A DNA stretch of 64,000 nucleotides, taken from NCBI RefSeq assembly GCF_008974325.1, contig NZ_BKCG01000004.1, positions 1 through 64,000 on the forward strand, written 5' to 3'. The notes under the pieces are model-generated. The model was not told the origin of the DNA, searched no databases, and saw only the letters and a list, made by a program, of their open reading frames with translations. Source of the stretch: Patiriisocius marinus. Lineage in GTDB: Bacteria; Bacteroidota; Bacteroidia; Flavobacteriales; Flavobacteriaceae. How positions within the stretch are numbered: the stretch's first letter is position 1; every line of letters starts with the position of its first letter. Positions 8,288-46,453 of the stretch are shown in pieces. Made by a program: the position numbers and the translations under genes.

Positions 8288-9217
8288 TTACATCGGACTA
8301 TTCAACCCATCCTCGTGATAACGTAACTTATCTGAAATCAATTTTACAATAGCCTCGTTCTTAGTTTTGTAAATGTTATTTCCGTCAAAATCCTGTTCAT
8401 TTAAAAGCATCTTGACTTTACGGCTTTCTTCTTGGTCAATAAACTTTTTGCAGGCTCTTATAAATGCAGCACGACTGCAACCTTTAATGCGTTGCTCTCG
8501 CATATTGACGTACACGAAGAAACTCTTCTGGATTTTATATTCAAGTTCAGTAATCTTACCCATTGCAAAAGCATTAGAACATAATTCATACTGCTCATCT
8601 ACGATAAGCTGACCAATGCGCACCATTTGATATTTAGGAATACGTTCTCGATAGCGCGTCACATCATCTACTTGGTGGTGCAATCGCAACCAAGTACAGT
8701 TCTGCCATTCAGAGGTTGTGATTTTTGCTACAGACTGGTGTGTGAGCACAATATCAATTCCTTTATGACGTACCGTACAAAGGGCACCTATCATAGACTG
8801 TCCTTTTGCACCTGTCATATAATGGTCGATATCGTCTAAGACTACAAGACCATTTTTATAGTGTTTCATAATCTTGGTGATGACTTCTTTTTTTTCGTCA
8901 TTATCCATAGGCGAACCATCTGCATTAAAAGGACGAATACGTCTTGAAGAGACTTTGGTAAGTGCTTTTAAATGATTTGGGCTTACAGTTCTAAATTGTG
9001 GGTAATCATCATCGTTAGTATCAAAAGCCAAAACCTTGCGACCTTTCTTTCCCATTACTAAATGATCCATCATATAGTGTTTGATCTCTTGTTTGTTGCG
9101 ATAGGTTTTACCAACGCCAGTTTCTCCACATACGAGCATAATCATTGGTTGACGCTCTAAATCTTCCTTCTTATAGCTTATGGGCTTACGACCACGATTT
9201 GATGCAATTCCAGACAT
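8288..9217 (-). CDS. P-loop ATPase, HerA/FtsK-like or Zot-like
   Basis: The protein has 309 residues. A Walker A motif, GETGVGKT, lies at residues 31-38, and a Walker B motif, LVVLDD, at 124-129. After Walker B comes R-H-K-G-x-D-I-V-L-T-H-Q, the sensor-like strand ending in Gln that is typical of the FtsK/HerA group. That group includes phage DNA-packaging ATPases, DNA pumps and filamentous-phage Zot proteins. I see no membrane helix. The ATG overlaps the stop codon of the upstream acidic protein (TAATG), so the two are translationally coupled and may act together. It is the last gene of the element's leftmost operon. Packaging, DNA transfer or chromosome handling are all possible, and the sequence alone does not decide between them. 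Confidence 0.7.
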   Translation of the reverse strand: MSGIASNRGRKPISYKKEDLERQPMIMLVCGETGVGKTYRNKQEIKHYMMDHLVMGKKGRKVLAFDTNDDDYPQFRTVSPNHLKALTKVSSRRIRPFNADGSPMDNDEKKEVITKIMKHYKNGLVVLDDIDHYMTGAKGQSMIGALCTVRHKGIDIVLTHQSVAKITTSEWQNCTWLRLHHQVDDVTRYRERIPKYQMVRIGQLIVDEQYELCSNAFAMGKITELEYKIQKSFFVYVNMREQRIKGCSRAAFIRACKKFIDQEESRKVKMLLNEQDFDGNNIYKTKNEAIVKLISDKLRYHEDGLNSPM

Positions 9218-10176
9218 TACGAATTGTTTTGTGGTTCTTCAGCAACATCTATGATGGGAATGTCATCATCAACTTCTTCAACCTCTATATCTTGAATGGT
9301 AAGTTTTGGTTTAATTTCTTTTTCTACTTCCGCTTTCGCGAAAGCGGAATCCGTACCATCTGAAACATCCTTATTTTCATCTTCCTCCTCAACATCTTCT
9401 ATTTCTGTTTCTCCTTTTTCCTGACGGACGATGTCCAGAATGCGATTTTCCAGTAGACTGTTTTCGGCACGTACTTCCATAACGACTTGTGCCTTTTTCA
9501 TTAAAATAGAAATAACCGCACCCATTAATTGCTGTTCTGGCGTTAGCTTTTTAGCCTTCTTGCGCAGGACTTGAGCTAGTAATGGTCTTAAGAGAGCTTG
9601 ATCTTCTTTATCAAGCTTGATGCGTTCTACATTTTTATCATTCTGCTGGTCTACAACCTGAATGATTTCTTCAAACTCATAGAACTCTTGATGCTTTCTT
9701 ATTTTTACGAAGTAACCACCGCCAACTGCAAGAACATTATTGGACATTCCCAATATCGCATCGGCTGCTTGATTAGCTTGTGCAAGTGGAACTTCAAAAT
9801 CTTGGTCGGCTGCGGTTTCATCAGCTTCGGTATCAAAACCATTTCCGTTGATTTCTTGTTCTGGAGCATCAAGTGGTTCTTGTTCTTTTTCCTTTTCGAC
9901 CTTGGCTTCCACCTTAGTTCTAAAATCGGTTTGAGTATTTCCGCTACGTCCAGGTTCTAGTTCATCAAGAGTTTTATGCTCTTGCTCTGGTTTCCAAACG
10001 TTCCAGCTTTTTTGTTTTTCTTCATCTGCATCAACAGGACGTTCGCCACCTATGTCTTTTTCAATTACAGGTTGGTTAAGCGGACTACTATCTTCGTTCT
10101 GTAGTTGTTCAAAATTGATTTCTTCTGGAGTTGCGGTAAGGGCATCTTGTACCTCTTGAGCGATTTTGTCTTGCAT
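9217..10176 (-). CDS. Acidic, largely disordered protein coupled to the ATPase
   Basis: The protein has 319 residues. Residues 1-135 and about 245-319 are rich in Glu, Asp, Gln and Asn and look disordered. A middle part (about 140-245) is predicted helical, with a Gly-Gly-Gly turn (AVGGGYFVKI) and a basic patch (RKKAKKLTPEQQ). No family is recognised. The gene sits between the DnaA-IV-like gene, 4 bp upstream, and the ATPase, whose start overlaps its stop. One copy of the palindrome (9328-9349) falls in the gene and encodes SAFAKAE. A scaffold or partner of the ATPase is a reasonable guess from coupling only. Confidence 0.7.
   Translation of the reverse strand: MQDKIAQEVQDALTATPEEINFEQLQNEDSSPLNQPVIEKDIGGERPVDADEEKQKSWNVWKPEQEHKTLDELEPGRSGNTQTDFRTKVEAKVEKEKEQEPLDAPEQEINGNGFDTEADETAADQDFEVPLAQANQAADAILGMSNNVLAVGGGYFVKIRKHQEFYEFEEIIQVVDQQNDKNVERIKLDKEDQALLRPLLAQVLRKKAKKLTPEQQLMGAVISILMKKAQVVMEVRAENSLLENRILDIVRQEKGETEIEDVEEEDENKDVSDGTDSAFAKAEVEKEIKPKLTIQDIEVEEVDDDIPIIDVAEEPQNNS
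9328..9349. repeat. Element palindrome, 22-bp perfect copy
   Basis: This is the longest copy of the GCTTTCGCGAAAGC family. The symmetry extends outward by CC/GG and TT/AA to 22 bp. It is in the coding sequence of the acidic protein. Confidence 0.9.
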
Positions 10177-10180
10177 AGGC

Positions 10181-10633
10181 TTAGTTCAATTTTGCGATAA
10201 AATTGATAATGTTGTTTTCGAGGATTTTGAATTTTTCTACAAAAGGCTTGTAGAATTGAGGGATGGAAAGAATCTCATCACACTTATGGTAATTGTAAAG
10301 TATCGCACGTTTAGACTGCTTAAAACTCTCGCCAATCTTTGCATAACTAGAATCAGTATATTTTTTCAGCAAATAGTAACAGGACATACGAGCTTCACGA
10401 TATTCTTGTACCGTACTTGTATAGAAGTTTTCTTCTTTTAAATCAAAGACTTCAATACTTTGAGAAATAATAAAAACGAGAAGGAGTTTCACTTTCTCTT
10501 TATCCTGAGTGGTAAGTTCTGTGTTGCTAGTCAAACTATCAATAACCTCAATAGTTTTTTGAAGTCCAAACTTCCCAATCAAGGAATCTATACTCTGTTG
10601 TAAATCGTGGTAATCGTGTGCTGTCTTTTTCAT
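10181..10633 (-). CDS. DnaA domain IV-like DNA-binding protein
   Basis: The protein has 150 residues counted from the ATG at 10633. A longer reading from an upstream TTG adds ten residues and is less likely. Residues about 80-125 (EARMSCYYLLKKYT, then SYAKIGESF, then SKRAILYNYHKCDEIL) follow the pattern of the C-terminal origin-binding domain of DnaA, where a long helix is followed by a helix-turn-helix and a basic loop. The AAA+ ATPase domain of DnaA is absent. Stand-alone proteins of this kind occur on mobile elements and may bind an element origin. It is the first gene of a three-gene operon with the acidic protein and the P-loop ATPase. Confidence 0.6.
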   Translation of the reverse strand: MKKTAHDYHDLQQSIDSLIGKFGLQKTIEVIDSLTSNTELTTQDKEKVKLLLVFIISQSIEVFDLKEENFYTSTVQEYREARMSCYYLLKKYTDSSYAKIGESFKQSKRAILYNYHKCDEILSIPQFYKPFVEKFKILENNIINFIAKLN

Positions 10634-10781
10634 TGGGCAATTGCCGAATTGTTTGACAGGCAAACTACTAAAAGTTGTTTTTCAATTTATTTACAAAAAG
10701 TTTATAGAAGATTTACTTTGGTTTTTACTTGAGTAGGTAGGAATGTTTTTTAACTTGTAGGGTTTAAAATTTGAACAATAA

Positions 10782-13637
10782 ATGAATAAAGGAGCGAAAT
10801 TTTATAAATGCGATTTTCAAGTACATAGCCCAAGGGATATTGCTTGGACAGGAAATAGGTTTGGAATGAAATCCCCAGAGCTGGAACAACTTACTGAAGA
10901 AGAAAAAAGTGATTTAATTGATAAAAGAGAACAATTTTGCAAAGAGTATTTAGATAAAATTAGAAATTCAGGTCTCAATGCAATAGCGATGACAGACCAT
11001 CACGATGTCACTTTTGTTAAGCATTTAAGAAAAGTTGCTAACGATGAAAATGAGATATTTGAACTTACTGGTGAAACTGAGAAAATGATTACTGTTTTTC
11101 CTGGCATTGAACTTACCATTAGTAGTCCACCAAGCCAAGCCATTCTGATTTTAGATTCTGATTTTAGTGATAGTCACCTTGACGCAGTATTAAATTTTAT
11201 CGGCATTTTCCCAACTGATCCATTCCATAGAGAAACACTACCAACTGATCAAATTCCAGCTGAATTAATAAAGAGTTTTAAAGACCTCTACGGTACTTTA
11301 GATAAACTCCCTTATTGTAAAGGGAGATATATAATCTTACCGAATGTAAACAAAAGTGGTCAGCATACTGTGATGCGAAATGGATATAAAGATCATTACA
11401 AAAGTATGCCTTGCGTTGGAGGTTATGTCGATAAAGATATCTCTAGTGACGCAGGCTACCTGAACAAACTAAACGGGGGCGATGTAAATTATGGCAATAA
11501 GAGTTTAGGATTATTTTCGACATCCGACAATCGATTTGAAGACGGAAGGTATTTCGGCACCTATTCTACTTGGGTGAAATGGGCAGAACCTACTGCTGAG
11601 GCTATACGTCAAGCTTGTCTTGCTAAAGAATCTAGAATTTCTCAAATACTACCAGAAATTCCACAAGTTTTTATTGAATCTATAGATGTTACTGCTTCTA
11701 AATTTTTAGGAAGTTTTACTCTTAATTTCAACGAACAATATAATGCATTGATTGGTGGAAGAGGTACTGGAAAATCGACTATTTTAGAATACGTACGTTG
11801 GGGATTATGTGACCAAACAGTAAAAACAGGAAATTATGAAGAGTTAGATATTATTCAAAAGAGAAGAGACACCCTTATTACGAAAACGCTCGCGGCAGTA
11901 GATGGCGAAGTGAGAATAACGATGCTCAAAAATAATGTTAAGCATATAGTAAAAAGAGATTCATCTAGTAGAGAAATATTACTTAAAATAGGAGAAGGCG
12001 ATTTTCAAAGAGTAAGCGAGGAGGACATAAGAAAGGTACTACCAATACAGTCCTACAGTCAGAAACAATTAAGTGATGTTGGTGTTAAAACTGAAGAATT
12101 AAAAAGGTTTATAGAACAACCTATTAAAGGAACTCTTGAAGGTATCTCTTATAAATTAGATGATACTAATGTAAAATTACGAGATTCATATAATCAACTC
12201 GTTCGTAAAAAACGAGTACAAGGAGAAATTACAAATTTTGGATTGGAAGGCAGTTCAATTAGCGGACAGGTTAAGGGAATAAGAGATTCTTTAAAAGGAA
12301 TATCACCACAAGATCAAATTGTAATTGATAAAAAGTCAAAGTACGAGTCTGAGAAAACCATTATTGAGAACACAGAAACCGAGTTGAGCTTGTTCGAAGA
12401 AAAAGCAGACGACTTATTAGAGCTACTTAAACTATATCCCGAGCCGATAGATACTAGCTTAGAAAATGTTGAAAACCAAGAAATATTCAAGGAACTTGAT
12501 AGTGTTGTAAAAGCTAAATTTGAAAAAATCAAAAAGACAACAGAAGAATTAAAAGATGTCTTTAGCGAATCTAATCTGAAGGAATACGATTCTGTGGTTG
12601 AGAAGTGGAAAGAAAAGGAAACTGCTTTCAATATACAATACGAAGCCGCAAAAGGGAAATCAAAGTTGAGTCAAGATCAGCTTACTACAATAAAAACGTT
12701 AGAAGATAGACTTGCAGAAATAAACACTACTATAGCAGAAAGAAAGTCAGTATTAAAGGAGTTGGGGAATCCAGAAGATGATTACGATAAGTACAAAACC
12801 TTGTGGAAGGATTCCCATCTCGAAAAAGTATCAACTTTAAATACTCAGGCCACTAAATTTACAGAACTCTCTGATGGACTTATCAAGGCAGAAGTTACTA
12901 AAAATATCAATTTACAAGTATTTAAAGAGAAGCTTCGCTCAATTTTAGAAGGAACTAGAATAAGAGAGGATCGTATCGACGCTCTTTTGGAGCACATCAA
13001 AACCAATCAAGACCCTATAATTGAGTTTATAGCTGTGACAGACGAATTACGATTACTGGCTGAATTCAAACTTGATGAGGAAAATCCAGATGATTTACCG
13101 GTCACTCCAATTTTGGACTCTACTGGCTTTACAGAGGATCATAAATATAAAATCCAAGCTAAAATTACGACTGACGACTGGTTACAGTTATCAATAACTG
13201 AATTGGATTTCGATCCTGAATTCTATTACACAACTAATAATGAATTAGGGGATGAAATTCCGTTCAGAGATGCTTCTGCAGGTCAACAGGCAACAGCATT
13301 ACTCACAGTACTTTTGAACCAACCAGGTATTCCGTTACTTATAGATCAACCAGAGGATGATATTGACAATAGAGCTATAGATAATATAATTAAGAGTATA
13401 TGGGAGGCAAAGAAAAAACGTCAACTAATATTTACAAGTCATAATGCTAATCTAGTTGTGAATGGAGATGCAGAACTTGTTATATGCTGTGATTATAAAG
13501 ATTCTAGTTCACAAACTAGAGGTATAATAAAGGCTGAAGGCGCAATAGATAATAATATCATTAAGTCGGAAATAACTTCTGTAATGGAGGGTGGCGAGAA
13601 AGCCTTCCGACTGAGAAAAGATAAGTACGGTTTTTAA
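10782..13637 (+). CDS. PHP-domain plus SMC-like ATPase (TrlF-like)
   Basis: The protein has 951 residues. The N-terminal part is PHP-phosphoesterase-like: DFQVHSP at 11-17, MTDHHD at 70-75 and FPGIEL near 105. From about 300 it is an SMC/ABC-type ATPase: Walker A GGRGTGKST near 325, a long Glu/Lys-rich coiled-coil region (about 430-730), signature SAGQQAT near 830, Walker B PLLIDQPEDD near 850, and an H-loop TSHNAN near 885. This order matches the family called TrlF-like AAA ATPases, which tends to occur in mobile and defence contexts. The classical PHP HxH is reduced to QVH, so metal chemistry may be altered. The gene is on the plus strand between two minus-strand backbone operons and opens cargo block A. 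A phage-defence nuclease/sensor role is inferred from architecture and location. Confidence 0.78.
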   Translation: MNKGAKFYKCDFQVHSPRDIAWTGNRFGMKSPELEQLTEEEKSDLIDKREQFCKEYLDKIRNSGLNAIAMTDHHDVTFVKHLRKVANDENEIFELTGETEKMITVFPGIELTISSPPSQAILILDSDFSDSHLDAVLNFIGIFPTDPFHRETLPTDQIPAELIKSFKDLYGTLDKLPYCKGRYIILPNVNKSGQHTVMRNGYKDHYKSMPCVGGYVDKDISSDAGYLNKLNGGDVNYGNKSLGLFSTSDNRFEDGRYFGTYSTWVKWAEPTAEAIRQACLAKESRISQILPEIPQVFIESIDVTASKFLGSFTLNFNEQYNALIGGRGTGKSTILEYVRWGLCDQTVKTGNYEELDIIQKRRDTLITKTLAAVDGEVRITMLKNNVKHIVKRDSSSREILLKIGEGDFQRVSEEDIRKVLPIQSYSQKQLSDVGVKTEELKRFIEQPIKGTLEGISYKLDDTNVKLRDSYNQLVRKKRVQGEITNFGLEGSSISGQVKGIRDSLKGISPQDQIVIDKKSKYESEKTIIENTETELSLFEEKADDLLELLKLYPEPIDTSLENVENQEIFKELDSVVKAKFEKIKKTTEELKDVFSESNLKEYDSVVEKWKEKETAFNIQYEAAKGKSKLSQDQLTTIKTLEDRLAEINTTIAERKSVLKELGNPEDDYDKYKTLWKDSHLEKVSTLNTQATKFTELSDGLIKAEVTKNINLQVFKEKLRSILEGTRIREDRIDALLEHIKTNQDPIIEFIAVTDELRLLAEFKLDEENPDDLPVTPILDSTGFTEDHKYKIQAKITTDDWLQLSITELDFDPEFYYTTNNELGDEIPFRDASAGQQATALLTVLLNQPGIPLLIDQPEDDIDNRAIDNIIKSIWEAKKKRQLIFTSHNANLVVNGDAELVICCDYKDSSSQTRGIIKAEGAIDNNIIKSEITSVMEGGEKAFRLRKDKYGF

Positions 13638-13905: not shown

Positions 13906-14637
13906 ATGACAAAAGAAGACTATAAAATAGATAGATTTCACGAAACCTGGGAAAGTGGTATTCCCTATTGGTTCATTGGAGCTTGCTTACTTAATTATAA
14001 TTTCAAATCGTTCAGACGTTTTTTAATTTATATTTCTCATTATAGCTCTGTCATAGATTTATGGGAGACTCCTTCTAAAGACATCAAAAACGAAGAAATA
14101 ATAGCTGGATTTCAGCCACTATTCACAGAACGTATTCCTAAAAAGGTGCTATACCAAATAACTGGACTCAAATCAAAAACTACTTTTAATGAACAATTCA
14201 AAACCTATTTTGAAGTAAATGACTTAATAGGGAGAAAAAGTTTTACGATGCTAGAAGTCTATAAAATTTTAGAATTTTGGCAAGGTGAAGGTAAATGGGG
14301 TCGAATGCAAGCGGCAAAAAAAGAGATGTTAGCTGATATTATTCACAACGGAAATTATGAGCGAACTGCTGAAGAATTTAGAGGAGCATTGGGTAAAGAA
14401 GGTTACAGACCAAACCTTATATCTCCTAAAAAAATCAAACAACTCATTGAACATATTGATCTCACAGAAGAAAACCAGATTGAAGAACTTATGGGTTATA
14501 GAGAACTTCAAACTGGCTTATTATGGATGTTTGTAATAGTAATGATTTTCCATTTCTTCACTCAAAATGAGGGAGTTTTTAATGCAAATAGTAAATCGGT
14601 AAAAGCTATATCCTCTCCACCTCATACCGATACCTAA
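13906..14637 (+). CDS. Unknown protein with one C-terminal membrane helix
   Basis: The protein has 243 residues. Residues 1-205 are soluble and aromatic-rich, with no motif I recognise. A hydrophobic helix (LLWMFVIVMIFHFF) lies at about 206-219 and is followed by a short polar tail, giving a tail-anchor-like layout. The last 32 bp overlap the 3' end of the minus-strand gene at 14606, so the two genes converge. It is the last gene of cargo block A, behind the TrlF-like ATPase and the small basic protein. A membrane-linked effector or partner of the ATPase is possible but only by position. Confidence 0.6.
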   Translation: MTKEDYKIDRFHETWESGIPYWFIGACLLNYNFKSFRRFLIYISHYSSVIDLWETPSKDIKNEEIIAGFQPLFTERIPKKVLYQITGLKSKTTFNEQFKTYFEVNDLIGRKSFTMLEVYKILEFWQGEGKWGRMQAAKKEMLADIIHNGNYERTAEEFRGALGKEGYRPNLISPKKIKQLIEHIDLTEENQIEELMGYRELQTGLLWMFVIVMIFHFFTQNEGVFNANSKSVKAISSPPHTDT

Positions 14638-15082
14638 AAACACTAGTCCTTACCACACGATATTTCCCAATCACAGTATTCCAACCCAACTGCGTTTTTA
14701 CACCCAAATCTCGAAATGTCGAACCAGCAATATTTCGGACACGTCCCATTCTTACTAACTCCTCTAAAATAGCTTCGTCATTAGCAGGTTTTGCAGCTTC
14801 CTTTTTAGGTGCTACTTTTTTAAGTTCTGGATGTTCTTCTAATGCATCTTCAATCTCATTAAACTCAAGCTTATCGGCATACTCTTCATCGATGTCCTCA
14901 AGAATTTCTAAATCCAGCTCTTCAAGTTGTTCTAGTAAGCTTCCTTTTTCACAATCTGAAACTGTTTCAAGTAGCTTATACATTCTATCAAAGATTTCAA
15001 TCTTTTCTTGAATAGGTTGCAATAGTAATTTCTTATCCAGCTTGTTATTCTTCAGGAAAACCTGATGTTCTATTTTCTTCAT
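14606..15082 (-). CDS. Unknown acidic protein, last gene of the DUF7192 operon
   Basis: The protein has 158 residues. Residues 1-85 are helical and Glu-rich (LLEQLEELDLEILEDIDEE), then there is a Lys/Ala/Pro linker, then a C-terminal domain of about 55 residues rich in Val, Arg and Tyr (KYRVVRTSVFRYRYEVERI). It starts 4 bp after the stop of the 81-residue membrane protein. No family is recognised. The C-terminal block could be a small beta domain that binds a partner or DNA. Confidence 0.6.
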   Translation of the reverse strand: MKKIEHQVFLKNNKLDKKLLLQPIQEKIEIFDRMYKLLETVSDCEKGSLLEQLEELDLEILEDIDEEYADKLEFNEIEDALEEHPELKKVAPKKEAAKPANDEAILEELVRMGRVRNIAGSTFRDLGVKTQLGWNTVIGKYRVVRTSVFRYRYEVERI

Positions 15083-15086
15083 AATC

Positions 15087-15332
15087 TTATGTTGTTATTG
15101 GGATGAGTTCCTGTTTATCTGCAATAGCATTTTCTAAAACGTTAGAAAGCGCTGCTGTCGCTAGAGAGGTCACGATAATGATACCGGTAGTTTTTAAAAG
15201 TTCGGCACCTTTGGGTATCTGTAATTTGAATTCCTTCGATGGGTCATTCTTACCTAAATTGTAATAGATAAGCGCTTCGGCAAAACCTATTGCGAGTCCA
15301 GCGCCTGTAATGATTAATACTTTTTTATTCAT
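15087..15332 (-). CDS. Small membrane protein with two helices
   Basis: The protein has 81 residues. Hydrophobic segments lie at about 4-26 (VLIITGAGLAIGFAEALIYY) and 47-66 (TTGIIIVTSLATAALSNVL), with a polar loop between. It is encoded in an operon with a two-bp gap behind the 206-residue basic protein. Size and layout are like phage holins or small inner-membrane anchors, but there is no lysis enzyme nearby, so I make no functional claim. Confidence 0.6.
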   Translation of the reverse strand: MNKKVLIITGAGLAIGFAEALIYYNLGKNDPSKEFKLQIPKGAELLKTTGIIIVTSLATAALSNVLENAIADKQELIPITT

Positions 15333-15334
15333 AG

Positions 15335-15955
15335 TTATTTGGTGGCTTTTTCTTCCATTTTATCATACTTGGCTTTAATGTCTTTTTCGCCAGCTTCGGC
15401 ACGTACAAAGTTGATTCCGTAGGTATTCATAATACCTCTGTGTGCACGGAGCAGAATCTTCTCGGCTTCCTTTTGCATCTTCACATTATCCTTATGCGCT
15501 GGCGGAATCAAATTAGCAATCGCGATAAAATGATTCTTGATTTTAGTGTGGCGCATCGGCTTGGGTTTCTTAGGCTCATTCTTACGCTTTTCTTCATTAA
15601 AGCGTTTGATTTTTAACCGACACGCCTTGATGTCTTTACTCAAACTATCCAGTTCTTTCTTGACAGTTTTAGTAGGTTCTTTGTCCTTTTTTGGAGCATC
15701 CTTTTTAGAATCGGATGATTCTTTTTTAGACGTCTCTTTGGATTGCTTCTTTTCGGCTTTCTCAGCTTTTATGGCTTTAGGCGCGAGACGTTCCACTAAC
15801 AGAAAAACCTTTTCAATATTCTCCTTGGCAATCTCTTCAAAAGCCTTTTTATCGTTAGTTTCTTTGTAGTCATCCAGTATGTCCTGCACAGCAGTTTGTA
15901 AAGCTTCAGGCTGCACATTGCTCATATCGAGCGCTTGTAATTGTTGTATGGTCAT
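15335..15955 (-). CDS. Lys/Glu-rich coiled-coil protein, unknown
   Basis: The protein has 206 residues. The N-terminal third is a helical domain (QALQTAVQDILDDYKETND). Residues about 65-150 are a charged stretch with runs of Lys, Ser and Glu. The C-terminal 60 residues are helical (MRHTKIKNHFIAIANLIPP). No family is recognised. It lies in the middle of the six-gene minus-strand operon led by the DUF7192-like gene. Confidence 0.6.
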   Translation of the reverse strand: MTIQQLQALDMSNVQPEALQTAVQDILDDYKETNDKKAFEEIAKENIEKVFLLVERLAPKAIKAEKAEKKQSKETSKKESSDSKKDAPKKDKEPTKTVKKELDSLSKDIKACRLKIKRFNEEKRKNEPKKPKPMRHTKIKNHFIAIANLIPPAHKDNVKMQKEAEKILLRAHRGIMNTYGINFVRAEAGEKDIKAKYDKMEEKATK

Positions 15956-15964
15956 CGTTTATTT

Positions 15965-16279
15965 TTAAGCTGCGATTAATAATTCTAGTTCCAGTAAGTC
16001 TAACGCTCTGGCACGTTCTTTTTCTTGAAGGCGTATGATTTCTTTAGCATCACTGCGTTTATCTTTCTGTTGCATTTTAGGATGCAGCATCTCATATAAA
16101 AGCATATCTGCTTCTTGTGCTTTTACATCAGACTTGCTAAAATCTTCAGAAGTTGATTTGATTACTTCCCAAGCCTTTACAGGATCAAGTTTGCTACCTG
16201 TGAGATCTACAATTTCATCTTGATTTTTAATCTTCAACGCCTTGAGCGCATCCTTGGTTATATTCTTAGTTTTATACAT
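15965..16279 (-). CDS. Unknown small helical protein
   Basis: The protein has 104 residues and looks nearly all-helical, with a charged C-terminal helix (IIRLQEKERARALDLLELEL). It lies 3 bp downstream of the 108-residue gene and 9 bp upstream of the 206-residue gene, so it is part of the same transcript. No motif suggests a function. Confidence 0.58.
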   Translation of the reverse strand: MYKTKNITKDALKALKIKNQDEIVDLTGSKLDPVKAWEVIKSTSEDFSKSDVKAQEADMLLYEMLHPKMQQKDKRSDAKEIIRLQEKERARALDLLELELLIAA

Positions 16280-16282
16280 TGT

Positions 16283-16609
16283 CTATAATTTATGATCTAT
16301 GGCATATTGTTGATGGTACAGCGGTTCCAGCGACCAAATAAAATCATTTGCTTCCTCCTGGTCTGCATAGTGAATGGAACACAACTGCGACGTTCCATCG
16401 GTTTTAAAACACTCGTAACGGTAACATTGTAGTGGATTATCTTCGTTTGAGATATCTATCGTAGTCCAGCGCAGGATGAGTGTGTTTTTACGCTTTCGCG
16501 AAAGCATAATCTGAAAATCTGTACATCGTTCTTTACAAGCTTTATTGATCTCAATCGCTCTGTCCATTATCTTATGAATGACACTTTGTTTTAAGGTTTT
16601 CTTATCCAT
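16283..16609 (-). CDS. Unknown small protein, 108 residues
   Basis: I choose the ATG at 16609. It overlaps the end of the upstream DUF7192-like gene by 8 bp, whereas the longer frame to 16690 overlaps by 89 bp. The product has an N-terminal helical part (MDKKTLKQSVIHKIMDRAIE) and then mixed strands with several Cys and Tyr residues (PLQCYRYECFK). It contains the palindrome at 16492-16505, encoding MLSRKRKN. No family is recognised. Confidence 0.6.
   Translation of the reverse strand: MDKKTLKQSVIHKIMDRAIEINKACKERCTDFQIMLSRKRKNTLILRWTTIDISNEDNPLQCYRYECFKTDGTSQLCSIHYADQEEANDFIWSLEPLYHQQYAIDHKL
16492..16505. repeat. Element palindrome GCTTTCGCGAAAGC
   Basis: A perfect 14-bp copy inside the 108-residue gene. 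Confidence 0.9.
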
Positions 16610-20545: not shown

Positions 20546-20546
20546 G

Positions 20547-21725: not shown

Positions 21726-21737
21726 TCCCGCCAGTAT

Positions 21738-36359: not shown

Positions 36360-36777
36360 TCTTATGTTGGGCTAATGCTTCTAAATAGGTTCTTAGTGTA
36401 ATTTCTGAATACAGCTGAATCGCTTCTTCTTTACCCATTCCGCTTCCATAAAGCAGGGAATCTTGAGGCGCAGTTTCATCCAGTTTATCCCAACTTTCTT
36501 TAAGCGTCCAGAGTGCGAGTTGCATCTTGTCTGTATTGGCAAGAAAGTCAGCTATTTCTCCTACCGATTTCCCTTCGGTATAGACCAGCTCCAGATAATC
36601 TTCAATAAGAGCAATTGGGTTTTCACCTTTCGCAAAAGCGTGTTCCACCAGTTGATGTAATTGAATGTAAAGCGCTGCTTCGTGATCTTCATAGCGTTCA
36701 AAAGGTTTTGTGTTTGTGACCATAAAGAGCTTTGTGCTCGTGTCGTTAGGCATTAATTGATTATTGAAATAAATCAT
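36352..36777 (-). CDS. Unknown helical protein between methylase and helicase genes
   Basis: The protein has 141 residues, mostly helical and acidic (IQLHQLVEHAFAKGENPIAL, VGEIADFLANTDKMQLALWT). Its start overlaps the methylase stop by 4 bp and its end overlaps the helicase start by 8 bp, so the three are strongly coupled and may form a complex. A degenerate palindrome near 36626-36640 encodes HAFAKGE. No family is recognised. Confidence 0.7.
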   Translation of the reverse strand: MIYFNNQLMPNDTSTKLFMVTNTKPFERYEDHEAALYIQLHQLVEHAFAKGENPIALIEDYLELVYTEGKSVGEIADFLANTDKMQLALWTLKESWDKLDETAPQDSLLYGSGMGKEEAIQLYSEITLRTYLEALAQHKNE

Positions 36778-39904: not shown

Positions 39905-41059
39905 TTAAATGAATGCTTCTTGAGAGTAACTGAGCTTCTTTTGAGTCCAGCTATCTTTAATCCAAACCGATTTGATTGCATTCTTCCCAATTCGGTTAAT
40001 TAGTGTTTTATCCTTAATTTGGTGGTTAATTATATCCAACCACTCAGGAACCTCACTCGCCACAAATCCATTCTCACCATCACTAATTAGTTTTGAAGTA
40101 GGATGGTAAATAGAAGCTACTATTGGAATACCGAAAACGGAAAGCTCCAATAATAATTGGTTGTTTTGGTTTCTGGTAAACAGCCCTTCCTTGGCAGGTA
40201 GTAAAACGACATCCAGTTGCAGACTATTCAGTTTTTCAAAATAGTCCAAGAAGGAAACAGAATCGTGTATTTCACAATCTATTTCTTTGAGGATTAAATC
40301 TCCTTCCAGAGAAGAATGGGGCTTGCCGAGACATACAAATTGAATTTTCTCTCCAAAAGTTTTTCTCATTTTAAAAAGGACTTCCTTAAGAGATAGCAAA
40401 TCTTCTTCATTTGGTTTTATTAAGCCTACTCGTAATTTCTCTGAAGTGTTTCTTGTAAGTGGTGGCATTTCTTCATAGCCATATCTGGAGACTAAACTAG
40501 GAAGGTATTGCACAAACGTATTTGCGTTTTCTAAACGGTCGTCAATGAATCGCTGCAAGAACTTTTGAAAAGCTTCATTGGCTACAGTCACGATATCCAT
40601 TAGACCCAAATTATTTTCTAGGCACTTTAGTTTGTCATTAGTTAGCTTTCGCGAAAGCGGAATTGAAACAGGTATTGCAAAATAATTTCTATCTAAGTCC
40701 ATTACTAATTGAACCGAAGGATTGAGTGTTTTAATGGCTTGCATCAAATAAGTCACATCACTAAAAAGCGCAGGGAAAATGATGTAATCTGCCCAGGTAA
40801 TTAAACGCTCATCCAGCTGATTAACAAAATCAGAGAATTTCCTTGAGAAGTCATTGGTCTCGATACTAGTAATAATCGCCTTATGCGTATCTGTTTTATT
40901 GATTTCTAATGCAGGTGTTATCATTCTATAATAACCTGTCGCATTGAGTTTGGGACTCACATAAAGCAGATGAATTTTATCATCTGCTTCTATATTATAT
41001 CGCTGGTCAAAAATGTTTTTAGGATTGAGCTTCGCTTGTAATTCTTTGATCGTTCTCAT
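39905..41059 (-). CDS. GT-B-type glycosyltransferase
   Basis: The protein has 384 residues. The C-terminal half carries the GT4/GT1-type donor site: LELSVFGIPIVAS, then H-P-T-S-K, then SDGENGFVAS. The N-terminal half starts with a Rossmann-like strand (HLLYVSPKLNATGYYRM). No membrane helix is present. A glycosyltransferase is unusual in an element of this kind. Possible targets are surface glycans, altering phage receptors, or modified DNA bases. Its ATG overlaps the stop of the upstream 90-residue gene (TAATG). The palindrome at 40645 encodes IPLSRKL. Confidence 0.72.
   Translation of the reverse strand: MRTIKELQAKLNPKNIFDQRYNIEADDKIHLLYVSPKLNATGYYRMITPALEINKTDTHKAIITSIETNDFSRKFSDFVNQLDERLITWADYIIFPALFSDVTYLMQAIKTLNPSVQLVMDLDRNYFAIPVSIPLSRKLTNDKLKCLENNLGLMDIVTVANEAFQKFLQRFIDDRLENANTFVQYLPSLVSRYGYEEMPPLTRNTSEKLRVGLIKPNEEDLLSLKEVLFKMRKTFGEKIQFVCLGKPHSSLEGDLILKEIDCEIHDSVSFLDYFEKLNSLQLDVVLLPAKEGLFTRNQNNQLLLELSVFGIPIVASIYHPTSKLISDGENGFVASEVPEWLDIINHQIKDKTLINRIGKNAIKSVWIKDSWTQKKLSYSQEAFI
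40645..40658. repeat. Element palindrome GCTTTCGCGAAAGC
   Basis: A perfect 14-bp copy inside the glycosyltransferase gene. Confidence 0.9.
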
Positions 41060-41331
41060 TATGTAGTTTCAAGTGAGTTCTCAATACCTTCATAAAATTT
41101 TGCGATGCGCTGTCCGGTTGCTTTGTCATAAATCTCGATGGTACCAGCTAGCGGACCATATTGTTTTATCTTTTTTCTGAAACGTTCCATACCAGTTTCT
41201 TTGCTACGTGTTCTTGATAGTTTGTGCTTCCAATCTATTGAATACATTGTTCTTACGTTGCCGTCTTTGAACCAGACAATCATTTTTGTAAATGAATCTT
41301 GTCCTAGTTTCCATCCTTTGCTTTGTGCCAT
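41059..41331 (-). CDS. Unknown basic protein, 90 residues
   Basis: The product contains strand-rich segments (MIVWFKDGNVRTMYSIDWK) and ends in GTIEIYDKATGQRIAKF, which could be a small beta domain. It is coupled on both sides by one-base stop/start overlaps with the glycosyltransferase and the 161-residue gene. No family is recognised. Confidence 0.62.
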   Translation of the reverse strand: MAQSKGWKLGQDSFTKMIVWFKDGNVRTMYSIDWKHKLSRTRSKETGMERFRKKIKQYGPLAGTIEIYDKATGQRIAKFYEGIENSLETT

Positions 41332-41816
41332 TATTTGAAATATTTAATTAGTGAATTAAGTGGGATTTGTTTGATGAACTCTTCATTTTGAAAAGCCCTA
41401 ACCTGGACTTTATCGTCCTTGAGATGAATCCAAATACGGACGCTTTCTTCATCAATACGATTGGCTTCTGCAAACTCTTTGAGATATTGTTTGATGCTAA
41501 AGGCAACTTTATTCTGTACGTTATCCAATTGTGCCAATTGCTCTTCCATAAAGAAATACGTGAGTTCTTCTGTAGGTATGGCACTTACAGGCTTGCTCTG
41601 ATTATACAGAAATGAGCGTATGATGTGATCTTTTTGGAAAATCCTAATGTAGAGACGATCCTTCGGAATTTGAAGTCTGTGAGAAATGTAGTTGGTGCGA
41701 TTTGTGATATTTTTCGTAACCATATTTTCGTAGCCGAAAATATCAACCGTCAAATCGGTTAATGCACCTTTGAGTTTTTTGCTCAAAGACGCATCATTTT
41801 TTTTAAATGGGTTCAT
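41331..41816 (-). CDS. Unknown protein, 161 residues
   Basis: The product contains two similar strand blocks: LYIRIFQKDHIIRSFLYN near 55-72, and VRIWIHLKDDKVQVRAFQNE near 125-145. These may be an internal duplication of a small beta domain. The gene lies 3 bp after the winged-helix protein gene and overlaps the 90-residue gene by one base, so it is in the same operon. The function is unknown. Confidence 0.62.
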   Translation of the reverse strand: MNPFKKNDASLSKKLKGALTDLTVDIFGYENMVTKNITNRTNYISHRLQIPKDRLYIRIFQKDHIIRSFLYNQSKPVSAIPTEELTYFFMEEQLAQLDNVQNKVAFSIKQYLKEFAEANRIDEESVRIWIHLKDDKVQVRAFQNEEFIKQIPLNSLIKYFK

Positions 41817-41819: not shown

Positions 41820-43061
41820 TTAAGTATTAAGTTGTAAATATTTGTGTGTAGAATGATTTAAAACGGAAGCGTGAAAGGTGTTCAACAACTCTGGTTGACC
41901 TAATTTGCTGATTCTGGTTTCGCAAGATCTAAATAGCTCAAGACGAGGTTTTTGTTTTGCAGTTTCTTTTTTCTCATTGTTAAGAAAACGACGAATTTGG
42001 GCTTGTAAAATCAGTTTTAACCGAACCTCGTATTCTCTTTTCTTCTGTTTTTGGTACCAGATTCTGGTTCCAGTAAAACCTGATGGATTTTTTGGGTCAA
42101 AGTATTTGTCTGGGAGCTGGACGTATCGTCTTGTTGGGTCTTTGGCAATGTATTTTTGAACAATTCCTAAGCGACTTACGTAAACTTCGTGGACGTTTTG
42201 TAATTGTTTGTCAGAGACAGGCTCGTACCACAGATAAAGCAGTTTCAGCGCGGTTTTCTCTTGACTTTGGGTAAGGTAATGGTCTTTGTAGATGGTATTT
42301 CGCGCCAGTTTCCAAAAGGACTTGACGTAAAATGATAGGGAAGCGGAACGAGCCTGATCGACGCCTGAAATTTCGGCGCCAGTTTGATCTGTGGCTCGTG
42401 ATTTCCGCTCTATTTCCCCTGCATCATTATTTTTTTTTGGGTCTATTTTTCCTGTGTATCCTGTAAAAGTGTTACTAGTAGCGTTGCGTGACTCATAACC
42501 GTTTGTGAGTGGTAACGAACTCGCTTTAGTCTTCAACTTATCAACGCCTATTATTATATTATTTATGTAACCATTGTTACTAGTATCTGTATGAGGACAA
42601 GTTGTCGTTTTAGAATTTTTAAAAAACTGATTATCAGTAGATTTTGATTTTTCAGTTTGAAGCTCTTTTTTAGGCTTATTAACGGCTTTTACACCACCTA
42701 TCAACAATATATTTGGGTTGATAAAAAGCTCGTAACCAGAGTTGGAACCGTGCCATATCTTTTTAGTGATGATATTAGCTTCTATGAGACGTTTGAGGTG
42801 TCTCTGGATGGTTCTTGTGCTTGCTTTGGCACGTTTTGCCAATTGCACGTTATTAGTCTTTAATGGAGGTAAATTCTGTAAATCTATGGCAGCTATACTA
42901 TTTGCCTTCAGTAAGGATATAGAATAAATCTTAATGATCTCTTGAGTGGTTAAGATCATTGCCTGTCTTATATGCGAAGAGAGGTTTTTTGTGCTTGCAT
43001 TATGCTGGTTAACGTAACCTTCTAAAGCATTAAATGCGATTGAGTATTGTATGATGGCCAT
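41820..43061 (-). CDS. Winged-helix protein, possible replication initiator or regulator
   Basis: The protein has 413 residues. Residues about 65-120 form a winged-helix domain (NVQLAKRAKASTRTIQRHLK, RLIEANIITKKIW). A low-complexity Asn/Ser/Thr linker spans about 130-240. The C-terminal 170 residues are helical and basic (KKREYEVRLKLILQAQIRRF). The layout, with an N-terminal winged helix and a basic tail, is seen in plasmid initiators and in partition regulators. It opens the operon that continues through the 161- and 90-residue genes to the glycosyltransferase. Confidence 0.62.
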   Translation of the reverse strand: MAIIQYSIAFNALEGYVNQHNASTKNLSSHIRQAMILTTQEIIKIYSISLLKANSIAAIDLQNLPPLKTNNVQLAKRAKASTRTIQRHLKRLIEANIITKKIWHGSNSGYELFINPNILLIGGVKAVNKPKKELQTEKSKSTDNQFFKNSKTTTCPHTDTSNNGYINNIIIGVDKLKTKASSLPLTNGYESRNATSNTFTGYTGKIDPKKNNDAGEIERKSRATDQTGAEISGVDQARSASLSFYVKSFWKLARNTIYKDHYLTQSQEKTALKLLYLWYEPVSDKQLQNVHEVYVSRLGIVQKYIAKDPTRRYVQLPDKYFDPKNPSGFTGTRIWYQKQKKREYEVRLKLILQAQIRRFLNNEKKETAKQKPRLELFRSCETRISKLGQPELLNTFHASVLNHSTHKYLQLNT

Positions 43062-43143: not shown

Positions 43144-43392
43144 TTAAGCCTCGTTGAATAGTATCTCTGTTCGTTTCTTAATAGAAGATCGCTTTTCTTC
43201 TTTTTCTTCTATAAGGTCAAGACACAATTCATAAATAATTTCTACACTACTGGGTCTGATAGATTGTAGTCTAAAAAACTTGGTAATCGTGGGGCGTGAT
43301 AATTGTGTTTTGCTTTTTATGACGTTCACGGGACTATCATAAAGCTTTTCCATCCTGAGAACCACCTTTTTAATATCTTCTGTTAGGTACAT
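43144..43392 (-). CDS. Small HTH regulator
   Basis: The protein has 82 residues. A helix-turn-helix reading NVIKSKTQLSRPTITKFFRL is visible at about residues 18-37, followed by a helical, charged tail. It is divergently arranged with the repressor-like gene at 43576 across a 183-bp AT-rich region, the classic layout of a genetic switch on phages and integrative elements. Confidence 0.65.
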   Translation of the reverse strand: MYLTEDIKKVVLRMEKLYDSPVNVIKSKTQLSRPTITKFFRLQSIRPSSVEIIYELCLDLIEEKEEKRSSIKKRTEILFNEA

Positions 43393-43575: not shown

Positions 43576-44271
43576 ATGAAAGAAAATCCCCAGTATGATG
43601 AGATAGACCTCAAATTTGTAAATGCAGTAGATGAAGTGATCGCTGTAAATTCTGAGTTAGGCATTAAACCCAACAATGATAGCTCAATCGGCAAAGAGGT
43701 ATATCCCACTAATAGAAGTATAGTTTCTGCAGTAAGAAGTAGATCGAAGCATATTCCGCATTTAGCGCTCATCAATTTTGCTAAACGTTTTAATATAGAT
43801 ATGAATTATTTTTATAATGAAACACCATTGATGTATCAGCCTCCATCTATCACAAATATTACTGTCAAGGGCAATAGTATTCAAAGCACAGGAAATAATT
43901 CAACAAATATTAATGCAGGAAAAGGAAAAATTCAAGGTATTTATACAGCAGAAACTGGATCCACAAATACTCTTGTAGAGGTTGTAGAGGTCAACACAAT
44001 GATTAATAATTTCATTTCTCAAATAGATGGTGAACGCGTAAAACAATTCTTGACTATAATTTCAAAAATACAAATGGAGAGCAAATCTTCTTCTGATAAA
44101 TTAGAACGTATTTTAATTGAGAAATCAGAAGAAATAAAGGAAATGCGCATTTCATTTAAAAAAGAGATGAGAGAGTTAAGAGAAGAGCTAAAAGAGACGC
44201 GTGATAAACTAGATGTTTCTCTAAAAAGAGAAGTGGATTTATTAAGAGAGCTATTAAATGAAAGGAAATGA
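43576..44271 (+). CDS. Phage-repressor-like regulator with C-terminal coiled coil
   Basis: The protein has 231 residues. The N-terminal part resembles the XRE-like region of Bacteroidota phage repressors (SIVSAVRSRSKHIPHLALIN, FAKRFNIDMNYFY). A Gly/Asn/Ser-rich middle (ITVKGNSIQSTGNNSTNINA) follows, and the last 90 residues are a charged coiled coil. It is the first gene of the plus-strand module that leads to the recombinase, and it overlaps the next gene by 4 bp (ATGA). It may control excision and integration. Confidence 0.7.
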   Translation: MKENPQYDEIDLKFVNAVDEVIAVNSELGIKPNNDSSIGKEVYPTNRSIVSAVRSRSKHIPHLALINFAKRFNIDMNYFYNETPLMYQPPSITNITVKGNSIQSTGNNSTNINAGKGKIQGIYTAETGSTNTLVEVVEVNTMINNFISQIDGERVKQFLTIISKIQMESKSSSDKLERILIEKSEEIKEMRISFKKEMRELREELKETRDKLDVSLKREVDLLRELLNERK

Positions 44272-44546
44272 GCTTTATTATAGAGCAAAAGGATTCAAAG
44301 TCATTAGATGATTTTAGTCCAGAAGAACTTCAGTTGATCAAAATGACAAGAAATCAAAAGTTTCAGTCATTGAGAATCGTAAAACGTAACGGTCGAATTG
44401 ATATGATTGAAGGTGTCGAACGTATCGAGGACAGAACTAAAATAGTAGACATCCTTAAACAACACGATTATCAGAATATTGAAATTAAACAAAGCGATGG
44501 TAGAATCGTCTTGATTAACAGAACAGTAAAAACAAAGGTTAAGTAA
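44268..44546 (+). CDS. Small conserved-type protein upstream of the recombinase
   Basis: The protein has 92 residues, with a helical N-terminus (LDDFSPEELQLIKMTRNQKF) and a strand-rich C-terminus (IEIKQSDGRIVLINR). It is translationally coupled to the repressor-like gene and lies in the recombinase module. It might be a recombination directionality factor or a regulator, but I recognise no defining motif. Confidence 0.6.
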   Translation: MSFIIEQKDSKSLDDFSPEELQLIKMTRNQKFQSLRIVKRNGRIDMIEGVERIEDRTKIVDILKQHDYQNIEIKQSDGRIVLINRTVKTKVK

Positions 44547-44670
44547 ACCAATTAAAGCAACTGAGTAGAGTCATCGGAAATACCGAAGCGATGCTACGAG
44601 ATCATAAGGATCACTATTTCAGATTCAATTGTAACCAATAAGTAATGGAGCGATTGATAAGAAAATTAAG

Positions 44671-44844
44671 ATGTCTAACTCAATTGCAGTAGAAGAAAAA
44701 CCTACTTTTAAGAAATATGATGCTGAATGGCTTCAAAAGTTTGATGGCTTCGAAGATTATTCAGATAAGAAAGTAGAAGAGACAATAAACCAGTTAGAAG
44801 AATTTGCAAAAGTACTTTGTGAGCATCTTCAAAATAGTAGTTAA
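44671..44844 (+). CDS. Small acidic protein immediately before the recombinase, 57 residues
   Basis: The frame begins ATG-TCT-AAC-TCA and ends CAA-AAT-AGT-AGT-TAA. The product has an AEWLQKFDGFEDYSDKKVEE core, then a Leu-rich helix. It ends 4 bp before the recombinase ATG, so the two are translated together. Short acidic proteins in this position are common in this group of Bacteroidota recombinase modules, as far as I recall, and a role as recombination cofactor is plausible. Confidence 0.7.
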   Translation: MSNSIAVEEKPTFKKYDAEWLQKFDGFEDYSDKKVEETINQLEEFAKVLCEHLQNSS

Positions 44845-44848
44845 GCAT

Positions 44849-46453
44849 ATGAAAGACCAAACAATATTTGATCAGTTTGCCAAAAAAGGTAAAGGACAAA
44901 AATTACGAACAGATGGTAAAGCTGTTATATACACAAGAGTATCTACCAAAGAACAGGCAGAGAACAACGCCAGTTTAGAAACTCAATTAAAGTACTGTAA
45001 GGAGCTTGCAAATAAAAAAGGACTTGAGGTAAGTGAGTATTTTGGAGGAACCTATGAGTCAGCTAAAAGTGATGAGCGTAAGGAATTTCAAAAGATGCTT
45101 AATTATGTAAAGCGAAGAAGTAACGTAGGCTATATCATTGTCTATTCTTACGATAGGTTTTCAAGGACTGGAGCTAATGGCGCTTACATAAGTGATCAGT
45201 TAAAAAGACAAGGTATTGTCACAATATCAGCTACCCAAGAGGTTGATACTTCTACAAGTGCAGGATCATTCCAACAGAACCTTTACTATATGTTTTCTCA
45301 GTTTGATAATGAATTGAGAAGAGATAAATCTGTGTCTGGAATGCAAGAGAAACTTCGCAAAGGACATTGGACAGGCGCATATCCGTTTGGCTACACAAAT
45401 GCCAATCCAGGAAAAGGAAAAACTCCCAAATTTGTTATTACAAAAGAAGGAAGGCTATTGAAGCAGGCTTTCTTGTGGAAAGCAAACAGCAATATGTCTC
45501 ACGTTGAAATCGCAAATAAATTACAGGAGAAAGGGCTTAAAATAAATGATAAGAGATTGAGCGTTTTATTTAGAAATCCATTCTATTGTGGACTTATAGT
45601 TAATAGCCTCATACCAGGAGAAGTTATTGAAGGCAATCATCAGCCTATGATTACTAAAGAGTTATTTCTTAAAATTCATAACCTATTGAATACAGGAACT
45701 GAGACCAGAAAATACTGCGTAGATGATGAAAACTTACCTCTGAAAACATTCTTGAAGTCCACAACTTGTGGAACTCCTTACACAGGGTTTATCGTAAAGA
45801 AAAAAGGGCTTTACTATTATAAGAATCGTCGTAAGGGAAGTAAGGAGAATAGAAGTGCTAAGAAACTACATCAAGAGTTTTTAGAGCTTTTAGAGACCTA
45901 CAAGCTAAAGGATAAGAAGTTTGTAGCACCATTAAAGGAAATGGTTTACGACACTTTTGTAAGTATGAATGAAGAAGCCATTAAAGAGACCAAAGAACTA
46001 TCAAGTGGTATAATCGCTATTGAAATGAAGTTAGATCGTTTAGAAGAGCGCTATGTCTTTGAAGAAATAAATAAGTCTCAATATGATAGATTTAGGACTA
46101 AGTTGGTAGCAGAAGTTAATCAAAAAAAGAAAAATTTATCAAAACATAGCTTCGATAGTTCTAACCTTAAGAAGTCGATAAATATTGCATTGAAGTATGC
46201 ACTTAATCTACCGCTATTATGGAGCTCTGGAGATATTGAAGTCAAAAGAAAACTTCAATATATGGTCTTTCCTGATGGTTTAGGGTATGACTTCCAAAAC
46301 AAGAGAGTTCAAACTTTTAGAGTGAACTCAATTTTTGCTCAAATAGCCTGTTTATCAGATACATTAGAGGGAAATAAAAAAGGGAACTTTCAAAATAATA
46401 TTGAAAATTCCCGTTTAGTGACCTCGACAAGATTCAAACTTGTAACCTCTTGA
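44849..46453 (+). CDS. Serine recombinase (element integrase)
   Basis: The protein has 534 residues from the ATG at 44849, which follows the small acidic gene directly. An upstream frame extension to 44804 is rejected. The resolvase domain has IYTRVSTKEQ with catalytic Ser32 and VYSYDRFSRTG. The Recombinase domain follows (HWTGAYPFGYTN, LLKQAFLWK, FRNPFYCGLIVN). The expected zinc ribbon is degenerate: only one Cys remains in STTCGTPYTG, and KNRRKGSKENRSAKK has none. A coiled coil near 395-460 follows. The last residues (VTSTRFKLVTS) are encoded antisense to tRNA-Arg, and those just before them lie over its terminator hairpin. The real C-terminus may therefore end near GNKKG before integration. 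It should integrate and excise the element. Confidence 0.93.
   Translation: MKDQTIFDQFAKKGKGQKLRTDGKAVIYTRVSTKEQAENNASLETQLKYCKELANKKGLEVSEYFGGTYESAKSDERKEFQKMLNYVKRRSNVGYIIVYSYDRFSRTGANGAYISDQLKRQGIVTISATQEVDTSTSAGSFQQNLYYMFSQFDNELRRDKSVSGMQEKLRKGHWTGAYPFGYTNANPGKGKTPKFVITKEGRLLKQAFLWKANSNMSHVEIANKLQEKGLKINDKRLSVLFRNPFYCGLIVNSLIPGEVIEGNHQPMITKELFLKIHNLLNTGTETRKYCVDDENLPLKTFLKSTTCGTPYTGFIVKKKGLYYYKNRRKGSKENRSAKKLHQEFLELLETYKLKDKKFVAPLKEMVYDTFVSMNEEAIKETKELSSGIIAIEMKLDRLEERYVFEEINKSQYDRFRTKLVAEVNQKKKNLSKHSFDSSNLKKSINIALKYALNLPLLWSSGDIEVKRKLQYMVFPDGLGYDFQNKRVQTFRVNSIFAQIACLSDTLEGNKKGNFQNNIENSRLVTSTRFKLVTS
46376..46412 (-). terminator. Terminator hairpin of tRNA-Arg
   Basis: On the minus strand GGGAATTTTCAA and TTGAAAGTTCCC pair with one mismatch around a 7-base loop, and six T follow. 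It begins 7 bases after the tRNA 3' end. It is also read through, in the opposite sense, as recombinase coding sequence. Confidence 0.8.

Follow-up and report, generated by a model that had tools for sequence, protein, structure and literature searches.

One end of a large integrated element lies in the 64,000-nucleotide (nt) stretch of Patiriisocius marinus DNA analysed here (the window), which forms the start of contig C4 of its assembly. On balance, this element of about 107 kb is judged to be provirus-like and to represent an unrecognised virus family. What fits it best is a temperate, tailless and probably membrane-containing virus family, or an element transferred in particles, that carries cargo of island size. 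Elements of other genera share with it about 45 backbone genes, or about 35 kb, in a single order, and attachment (att) sites were found at both ends in six elements. The backbone includes an ATPase that is, by its family matches, a candidate genome-packaging or DNA-pumping motor. On a second contig, C5, a 303-amino-acid (aa) protein and a related, propeller-bearing one are candidate shell proteins by their predicted folds.

Window position 1 is an assembly break, and a giant gene is open there:

3-7868, minus strand: N-terminal portion of the gene for a giant repeat protein (PKD/DUF11-like by eye); cargo, open at the contig end

On C5 and C4 the pieces of this gene have one orientation. The final 127 bases of C5 are identical to window 1075-1201, and window 1-127 to window 2125-2251, identities that we take as the residue of an assembler with 127-base words at a repeat. 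C5 was joined to C4 because a genome of the same genus (G006) carries both parts on one contig, C3, without the giant repeat gene. There, blocks within 81,874-115,852 match blocks of window 8295-46480 at 90.7-93.4%, with different cargo between them, and the stretch 31,402-80,136, 1.7 kb ahead of the window-like blocks, matches C5:193,347-242,028 at 94.5-99.3%. The element would then run through window position 1 into C5 as far as an attachment site at C5:193347, for a size between ends of about 107 kb (106,927 with 100 N), and the window would hold only its right 46 kb. The giant gene would be cargo between the jelly-roll module and the ATPase, across the join; the other 10 genomes of the genus, of which several are incomplete, gave no match to it. 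The sequence-only reading had bounded the element at 8288-46453 and erred on the left: the element does not end at 8288 and appears to continue into C5. It had also seen no transfer or virion genes, which holds in that nothing convincing turned up in the scanned backbone; the lack of virion-type genes in the window, though, is largely an effect of truncation, because the window starts at a contig end inside the element, and the rest of the module is on C5.

The right end of the element lies in a tRNA gene:

44804-46453, plus strand: large serine integrase (phrog_95, 3.3e-60), ending inside tRNA-Arg(acg)
46418-46423, no strand: attR core GTGACC at the tRNA-Arg 3' end; left copy at C5:193347
46418-46492, minus strand: tRNA-Arg(acg), the integration target, left intact

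The left end was located by a shared left-end signature that starts with GTGACC. At G006 C3:31402 it comes after host flank, and an exact copy stands at C5:193347; a second copy (94%) lies at C5:177320. The relatives' empty tRNA-Arg sites were of no help, the flank next to the tRNA being different in each genome. Eight elements, this one included, were mapped over the backbone. A looser signature pattern was found in 9 of 12 genomes searched, in one to three copies each and not always at a mapped element (matches away from one: G350 C2, G332 C21 twice, G331 C14, G342 C124). Between its ends the element measures 90.8 kb for Nonlabens sp. (G332), 57.5 kb for Aquimarina sp. 528 (G345) and 84.4 kb for G006; in G006 the end is ambiguous, with a 43-nt tRNA-Arg copy and repeated flank just left of the end used. 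For Aquimarina agarilytica (G350) the size is 79.7 kb with a left end that has only GTGG in common with the right core, and possibly 95.4 kb, given a 13-nt copy of the right core further out; for Aquimarina sp. 962 (G340) it is 78.7 kb by the inner copy of the left signature and about 105 kb by the outer. Targets among the mapped elements are tRNA-Arg acg, tcg and tct. In three elements, whose integrases are 64-65% identical to that of the window, the target is presumably the 3' end of ssrA; a search aimed at tRNAs only found none there. An integrase relative at E <= 1e-10 is present somewhere in the genome in 17 of 22 carrier genomes.

The part of the element on C5 encodes the two related jelly-roll proteins, phage-type lysis genes and 18 further small proteins, of which many have a membrane segment (the membrane-protein count is 13 of 24). 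The 303-aa protein is predicted to form one jelly roll, a domain of about 140 residues with 9 strands, and has an Arg-rich C-terminal tail. Among its best structure matches are coat proteins of plant viruses and nucleoplasmin; that coats of the VP4/VP7 or VP16/VP17 type are missing from the structure matches listed excludes nothing. The other protein, of 529 aa, shares the C-terminal part of the jelly-roll domain (hhalign 93.5%, E 2.3e-7, about 100 columns) and is modelled with a beta-propeller as an insertion. By profile, the lysis-type genes would encode an M15 endolysin (phrog_894, 2.3e-14), an amidase (phrog_822, 1.1e-16), an NlpC-type lysin and an Rz-like spanin (phrog_739, 3.4e-5), and a PHROG match to a tail lysozyme/endolysin reaches 5e-32; the pairing of endolysin and spanin that marks a phage lysis module is thus present at the profile level. 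Holin-type matches are weaker: a 118-aa protein matches phrog_2658 ('hol-like chemotaxis', category 'other') at 3e-6, a peptidoglycan-binding protein of 167 aa has a weak holin PHROG match (0.0042), and a 107-aa multi-helix protein is holin-like by eye, with no family matched.

The alignment of the 303-aa protein, used in a pattern-led scan over 84,980 species genomes, returned 38 loci in Flavobacteriales, mostly in marine genera and with conserved backbone gene order. Carriers include Ulvibacter, Nonlabens, Winogradskyella, Kordia, Aquimarina, Dokdonia, Olleya, Flavivirga, Algibacter and metagenome-assembled genomes, one labelled Vicingaceae. The same backbone with other cargo in other Bacteroidota is what the sequence-only reading had proposed to look for, and the refuting outcome that it named, no comparable backbone in any other genome, does not hold. 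The loci span about 20 kb at most, some being ended by contig ends, and within them genes are retained in one order: a 213-aa protein in 37 of 38, a 252-aa protein in 34, the propeller-bearing protein in 32 and, no more than 10 kb from the 303-aa gene, the ATPase in 29. The most compact, L069 and L070, run helicase, MoxR, DUF7192, small genes, DnaA-like gene, ATPase, a 56-aa gene and the 303-aa gene, so that a single small gene separates ATPase from jelly roll and no space is left for cargo. Compared with the copies of Ulvibacter (G006), Winogradskyella and Nonlabens, the gene of the 303-aa protein in this genome has 42, 37 and 57 base changes out of 909, with 0 amino-acid changes; the protein is under purifying selection. 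Kordia algicida OT-1 has three copies of the virion-like module (L040, L044, L045), of which two, separated by 62 kb, are almost the same. Alignment A2 holds 32 of the 38 loci (L036, L038, L039, L043, L055 and L071 being omitted as identical, similar or partial), alignment A3 25 of 31 complete frames, and alignment A4, of the ATPase, 19 rows of 29 loci plus the window.

In sampled genomes the element is rare. It is present in 7 of 299 genomes of a family sample, this one included, and in a phylum sample (395 genomes, again with this one) the profiles of the 303-aa protein and the ATPase match this genome only. Pattern scans of the 2.9 million IMG/VR contigs for the DUF7192 protein, the ATPase and the 303-aa protein found none, with few and short peptide patterns that could miss distant relatives, and two attachment-site DNA patterns had 0 matches in the same contigs. 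By tblastn, neither the DUF7192 protein nor the ATPase has a relative in the phage collection, and the ATPase has none in the plasmid collection. No paper describing the element was found in the open-access literature searched.

The backbone genes of the window, apart from the integrase, are as follows.

8288-9217, minus strand: A32/Zot-type ATPase of the FtsK-HerA superfamily (Pfam Zot, Pox_A32)
9217-10176, minus strand: very acidic 319-aa protein, net charge -41 (27 of 38 loci)
10181-10663, minus strand: DnaA-domain-IV-like DNA-binding protein, start uncertain (25 of 38)
14606-15082, minus strand: 158-aa protein (17 of 38)
15087-15332, minus strand: 81-aa membrane protein, one predicted membrane segment (16 of 38)
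15335-15955, minus strand: Lys-rich 206-aa protein, net charge +15 (16 of 38)
15965-16279, minus strand: 104-aa protein (16 of 38)
16283-16690, minus strand: 135-aa protein, start uncertain, relatives mostly 102-111 aa (14 of 38)
16602-17615, minus strand: DUF7192 protein (PF23822, 9e-10), adjoining the MoxR ATPase in relatives (11 of 38, most loci ending short of the gene)
30934-31884, minus strand: MoxR/CobS-type AAA ATPase (AAA_5 1.8e-12; phrog_249 9.5e-28)
32100-36359, minus strand: strawberry-notch (DarB-like) helicase (Helicase_C_4 4.6e-32; 8 of 8 mapped elements)
36352-36777, minus strand: 141-aa protein (8 of 8)
36774-39434, minus strand: N6-adenine DNA methylase (N6_Mtase 2.5e-8; 8 of 8)
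39905-41059, minus strand: glycosyltransferase-like protein, weak matches (7 of 8)
41059-41816, minus strand: two small proteins of 90 and 161 aa (8 of 8)
41820-43061, minus strand: winged-helix protein, candidate replication initiator on weak matches (phrog_270 0.0016, RepL 0.0027; 8 of 8)
43144-43392, minus strand: 82-aa protein, HTH-type by eye, no family above cut-off
43576-44546, plus strand: two genes (231 and 92 aa), regulator-type by eye (8 of 8)

Several of these products had been named in the sequence-only reading, and the profiles agree with it on the serine recombinase at tRNA-Arg, the DarB-like helicase plus methylase, the MoxR-like ATPase and the DUF7192-like protein. They agree also on the HerA/FtsK-like ATPase, where Zot (27.2 bits, cut-off 20.3) and Pox_A32 (23.4 bits, cut-off 22.8) are both above cut-off, and on the DnaA-like protein, whose Bac_DnaA_C match (8.2e-7, 29.4 bits) falls slightly below the cut-off of 31.5. 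By sequence, the ATPase has no relative among solved structures (best E 0.17).

Known transfer and virion families were sought by scanning 39 of 46 backbone proteins with Pfam and 40 of 46 with PHROGs. No Pfam relaxase or type IV secretion family was matched at E <= 0.1 in the backbone proteins, the C5 cargo being outside the profile scan, and no HK97-type capsid family was matched at that threshold in either collection. Nor was any convincing HK97 capsid, portal or large terminase, the genes that would mark a member of Caudoviricetes, or any double-jelly-roll coat matched in the scanned proteins; the candidate coat is predicted to have one jelly roll. The ATPase has a weak 'terminase large subunit' match (phrog_2666, 1.5e-6). 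Other PHROG names are at chance level: 'head morphogenesis' for the ATPase (0.013), 'tail fiber' for the DnaA-like protein (0.017), 'terminase' for the propeller part of the 529-aa protein (0.065), 'tail protein' for a 186-aa protein (0.056) and 'upper collar connector' for a 142-aa protein (0.018). Clear hits were to lysis enzymes and the integrase only, and several backbone proteins pointing to one phage or conjugative-element family, which would have spoken against the sequence-only reading, were not seen. Its suggestion that transfer genes belong to families that it could not name gains support, the ATPase operon and the genes at 14606-17615 being conserved backbone and the remaining module lying on C5. 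These two places, 8288-10633 and 14606-17615, had been put forward as the best in which to look; they are indeed backbone, but the ATPase and DUF7192 operons were rejected as the site of coat genes, the coat candidates being on C5.

The main rival to a virus is a relaxase-free DNA-export element, which we regard as unlikely. Such a contact-dependent integrative element would build an envelope machine in which the ATPase pumps double-stranded DNA (dsDNA) through a channel of small membrane proteins, peptidoglycan-binding proteins and hydrolases of the cell wall, with the jelly-roll and propeller proteins as adhesins or fibres. Integrative and conjugative elements (ICEs) of Bacteroidota and TraB-type conjugation of Streptomyces combine integration at tRNA genes, swappable cargo and an FtsK/HerA-type ATPase, as does the element, which has both the integrase and the tRNA target of an ICE. 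Unlike them, it carries lysis-type genes, and its backbone, as far as scanned, shows neither relaxase nor type IV secretion system families. An endolysin, an amidase and an Rz-like spanin have no clear joint use in conjugation, and an Arg-rich, coat-like tail is unexpected in a fibre.

As a virus, the element would be excised from tRNA-Arg (ssrA in relatives) by its serine integrase, and its Rep-like and DnaA-like proteins would initiate replication. The 303-aa and propeller-bearing proteins would form a shell around a membrane vesicle organised by the small membrane proteins, the A32-type ATPase would pump dsDNA into the particle, and endolysin, spanin and holin-type protein would open the cell. 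The propeller would then bind the next host, where particle-borne lysins would breach the wall and the helicase and methylase would counter restriction before the DNA reintegrates. A more specific proposal is offered tentatively, as possible rather than probable: that a temperate, tailless, membrane-bearing lineage of flavobacterial viruses acts as an ICE-like cargo carrier with a conserved 35-kb backbone and fixed slots, packages 57-107 kb in a single-jelly-roll shell, moves copper-resistance, defence and adhesin islands between genera, and has been missed by virus-finding tools. What weighs most against the viral reading is the size range, as a fixed shell would not allow it unless shells vary or the DNA is packed otherwise.

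The closest parallel in kind, though not by sequence, is with viruses that have two single-jelly-roll coats, the likeness of the coats coming from predicted folds. Viruses of the Sphaerolipoviridae, Simuloviridae and P23-77 group have an A32-like ATPase. Like the element, where this is predicted from genes, they have membrane proteins and two related single-jelly-roll proteins, one with an extra domain; that domain is a second jelly roll in the group and a beta-propeller here. No sequence similarity was found between them, their hosts are halophilic archaea or Thermus rather than marine Flavobacteria, and the element adds a serine integrase and very large cargo. The group is tailless with an internal membrane. 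Its two single-jelly-roll coats, membrane proteins and temperate members are described in PMC12642351, PMC12643093 and PMC6414509, and genomes of 16-19 and about 30 kb, versus 57-107 kb here, are given in PMC12642351 and PMC12643093. Measured against Singelaviria, the element would have the A32-like ATPase by family fit only (Pox_A32 and Zot above cut-off), and its size lies outside their range of about 16-30 kb, the backbone alone taking about 35 kb.

Tailless double-jelly-roll phages, too, have small membrane proteins and wall hydrolases, as the element does; they differ in genome size and in having two jelly rolls, versus the one predicted in the candidate coat, and gave no profile match. 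For PM2, PRD1, FLiP, the Odin group and Autolykiviridae, PMC5894146 reports that most groups have a packaging ATPase, that proviruses occur and that the host of FLiP is a Flavobacterium. The recently found Charybdis elements (PMC12324425) are marine, virus-like and endowed with jelly-roll proteins, and are small, circular and made up of other proteins. The strawberry-notch helicase and methylase of the element lie close together as two separate proteins, and the helicase C-terminus has a weak DarA_C match below cut-off (0.0021). DarA/DarB of phage P1 and related helicase-methylase proteins serve in anti-restriction.

Cargo is confined to a few fixed slots and the left end, and is swapped between relatives. 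In the window, besides the giant gene, the genes outside the backbone list are:

10782-13637, plus strand: TrlF-family AAA-like ATPase, defence-type cargo (NCBIfam NF045780, 4.1e-150)
13906-14637, plus strand: protein of 243 aa that has a membrane segment at its C-terminus; of the 8 mapped elements, only this one and that of G006 have it
17960-24863, plus strand: type I restriction-modification system (M, S, R), defence cargo (PADLOC MTase_I, Specificity_I, REase_I)
24908-30928, plus strand: further cargo, with 197-aa, 495-aa, McrB-like and McrC-like proteins

From its layout, the McrB-like/McrC-like pair is presumably McrBC, and the 495-aa protein has weak pAgo/CasR-type matches; the corresponding slot of G006 is occupied by other genes. 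Wadjet-like, AbiE-like and copper-resistance genes and the giant surface protein are further cargo by eye. At C5:242277-253763, a second serine recombinase, a Ras-like GTPase, a histidine kinase and OmpA- and PorP-like genes (all by eye) occupy, with the giant repeat gene, the slot that separates the ATPase from the 303-aa gene. AbiE-like genes, also by eye, fill one and the same slot in two genera (G006 C3:80218-81699 and G345 C3:313132-314843). Cargo blocks with copper or metal resistance by eye lie between left-signature copies at C5:177320-193346 and G340 C1:24810-51336, as if the integrase stacked att-flanked modules at the left end.

Recent movement is suggested by a palindrome:

9332-40658, no strand: seven exact copies of the 14-nt palindrome GCTTTCGCGAAAGC, starting at 9332, 16492, 16714, 19583, 20368, 30355 and 40645

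The palindrome lies mostly inside genes, and the window has no copy beyond these seven. From base composition about 0.0001 would be expected in 107 kb. The genome holds 19 copies: the seven in the window, nine in the element on C5, two in the adjacent att-flanked block (those on C5 all within C5:177799-239843) and one on C9. In G006, all 16 genomic copies lie between the att sites; in G350, 11 of 11 copies in the stretch read lie inside the element; and in G340 all 14 lie inside the outer left signature, only 6 of them inside the inner. The G345 element has none, and the Nonlabens and Dokdonia stretches have copies outside the element too. One Nonlabens genome (G020) has 578 copies across its length, and 51 of 59 genomes examined, with the present one among the 59, have 0. 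Several elements therefore probably derive recently from a palindrome-rich host, and the palindrome is regarded as a genome-wide DNA signal that marks recent transfers. It was not printed in any paper found in the open-access literature searched. On C9 (109518-112068), the single copy and a tRNA-Arg-like match stand 2.5 kb apart, perhaps the remnant of another element.

Exchange of islands may also be traced at the left end. The block C5:193347-230516, in which copper-resistance and Wadjet-like genes were named by eye, matches G006 C3:31402-68570 with an identity of 99.3% across 37 kb, whereas other matching blocks of the two genomes reach 90.7-94.5%; the left part was therefore exchanged more recently. 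This island fits a domesticated or strongly shuffled provirus, whose virion genes serve another use (killing or vesicle release, for example) and which spreads mainly by island exchange, and purifying selection on the 303-aa protein would suit a domesticated function as well. We nonetheless hold such a provirus to be quite improbable: the ends are defined, varied tRNA-Arg genes and ssrA-like ends are used, and the palindromes, foreign to the host, stop at the att sites, so that insertion of the whole element looks recent.

Least credible is a satellite or island that depends on a helper phage for packaging or on an ICE for mobilisation, and whose own genes do no more than redirect that helper: att-flanked cargo blocks do adjoin the main element in two genomes, and defence cargo is mixed with DNA-handling genes, a combination that phage satellites also show, but the element has lysis-type genes, an ATPase and putative coat genes of its own, its backbone exceeds in size every satellite known to us, and a helper, for which no search was made, is unnecessary to explain the data.

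Were the element a contact-dependent machine instead, it would constitute a new type of relaxase-free DNA-transfer system. If the viral reading is true, tailless prokaryotic viruses with jelly-roll shells and A32 motors would reach genomes several times the known size, those known to us being several times smaller. Such viruses would be vehicles for resistance and defence islands, a role now ascribed to ICEs and tailed phages, and virus catalogues would be overlooking a family present in named, cultured strains such as Kordia algicida OT-1 and Dokdonia pacifica DSM 25597.

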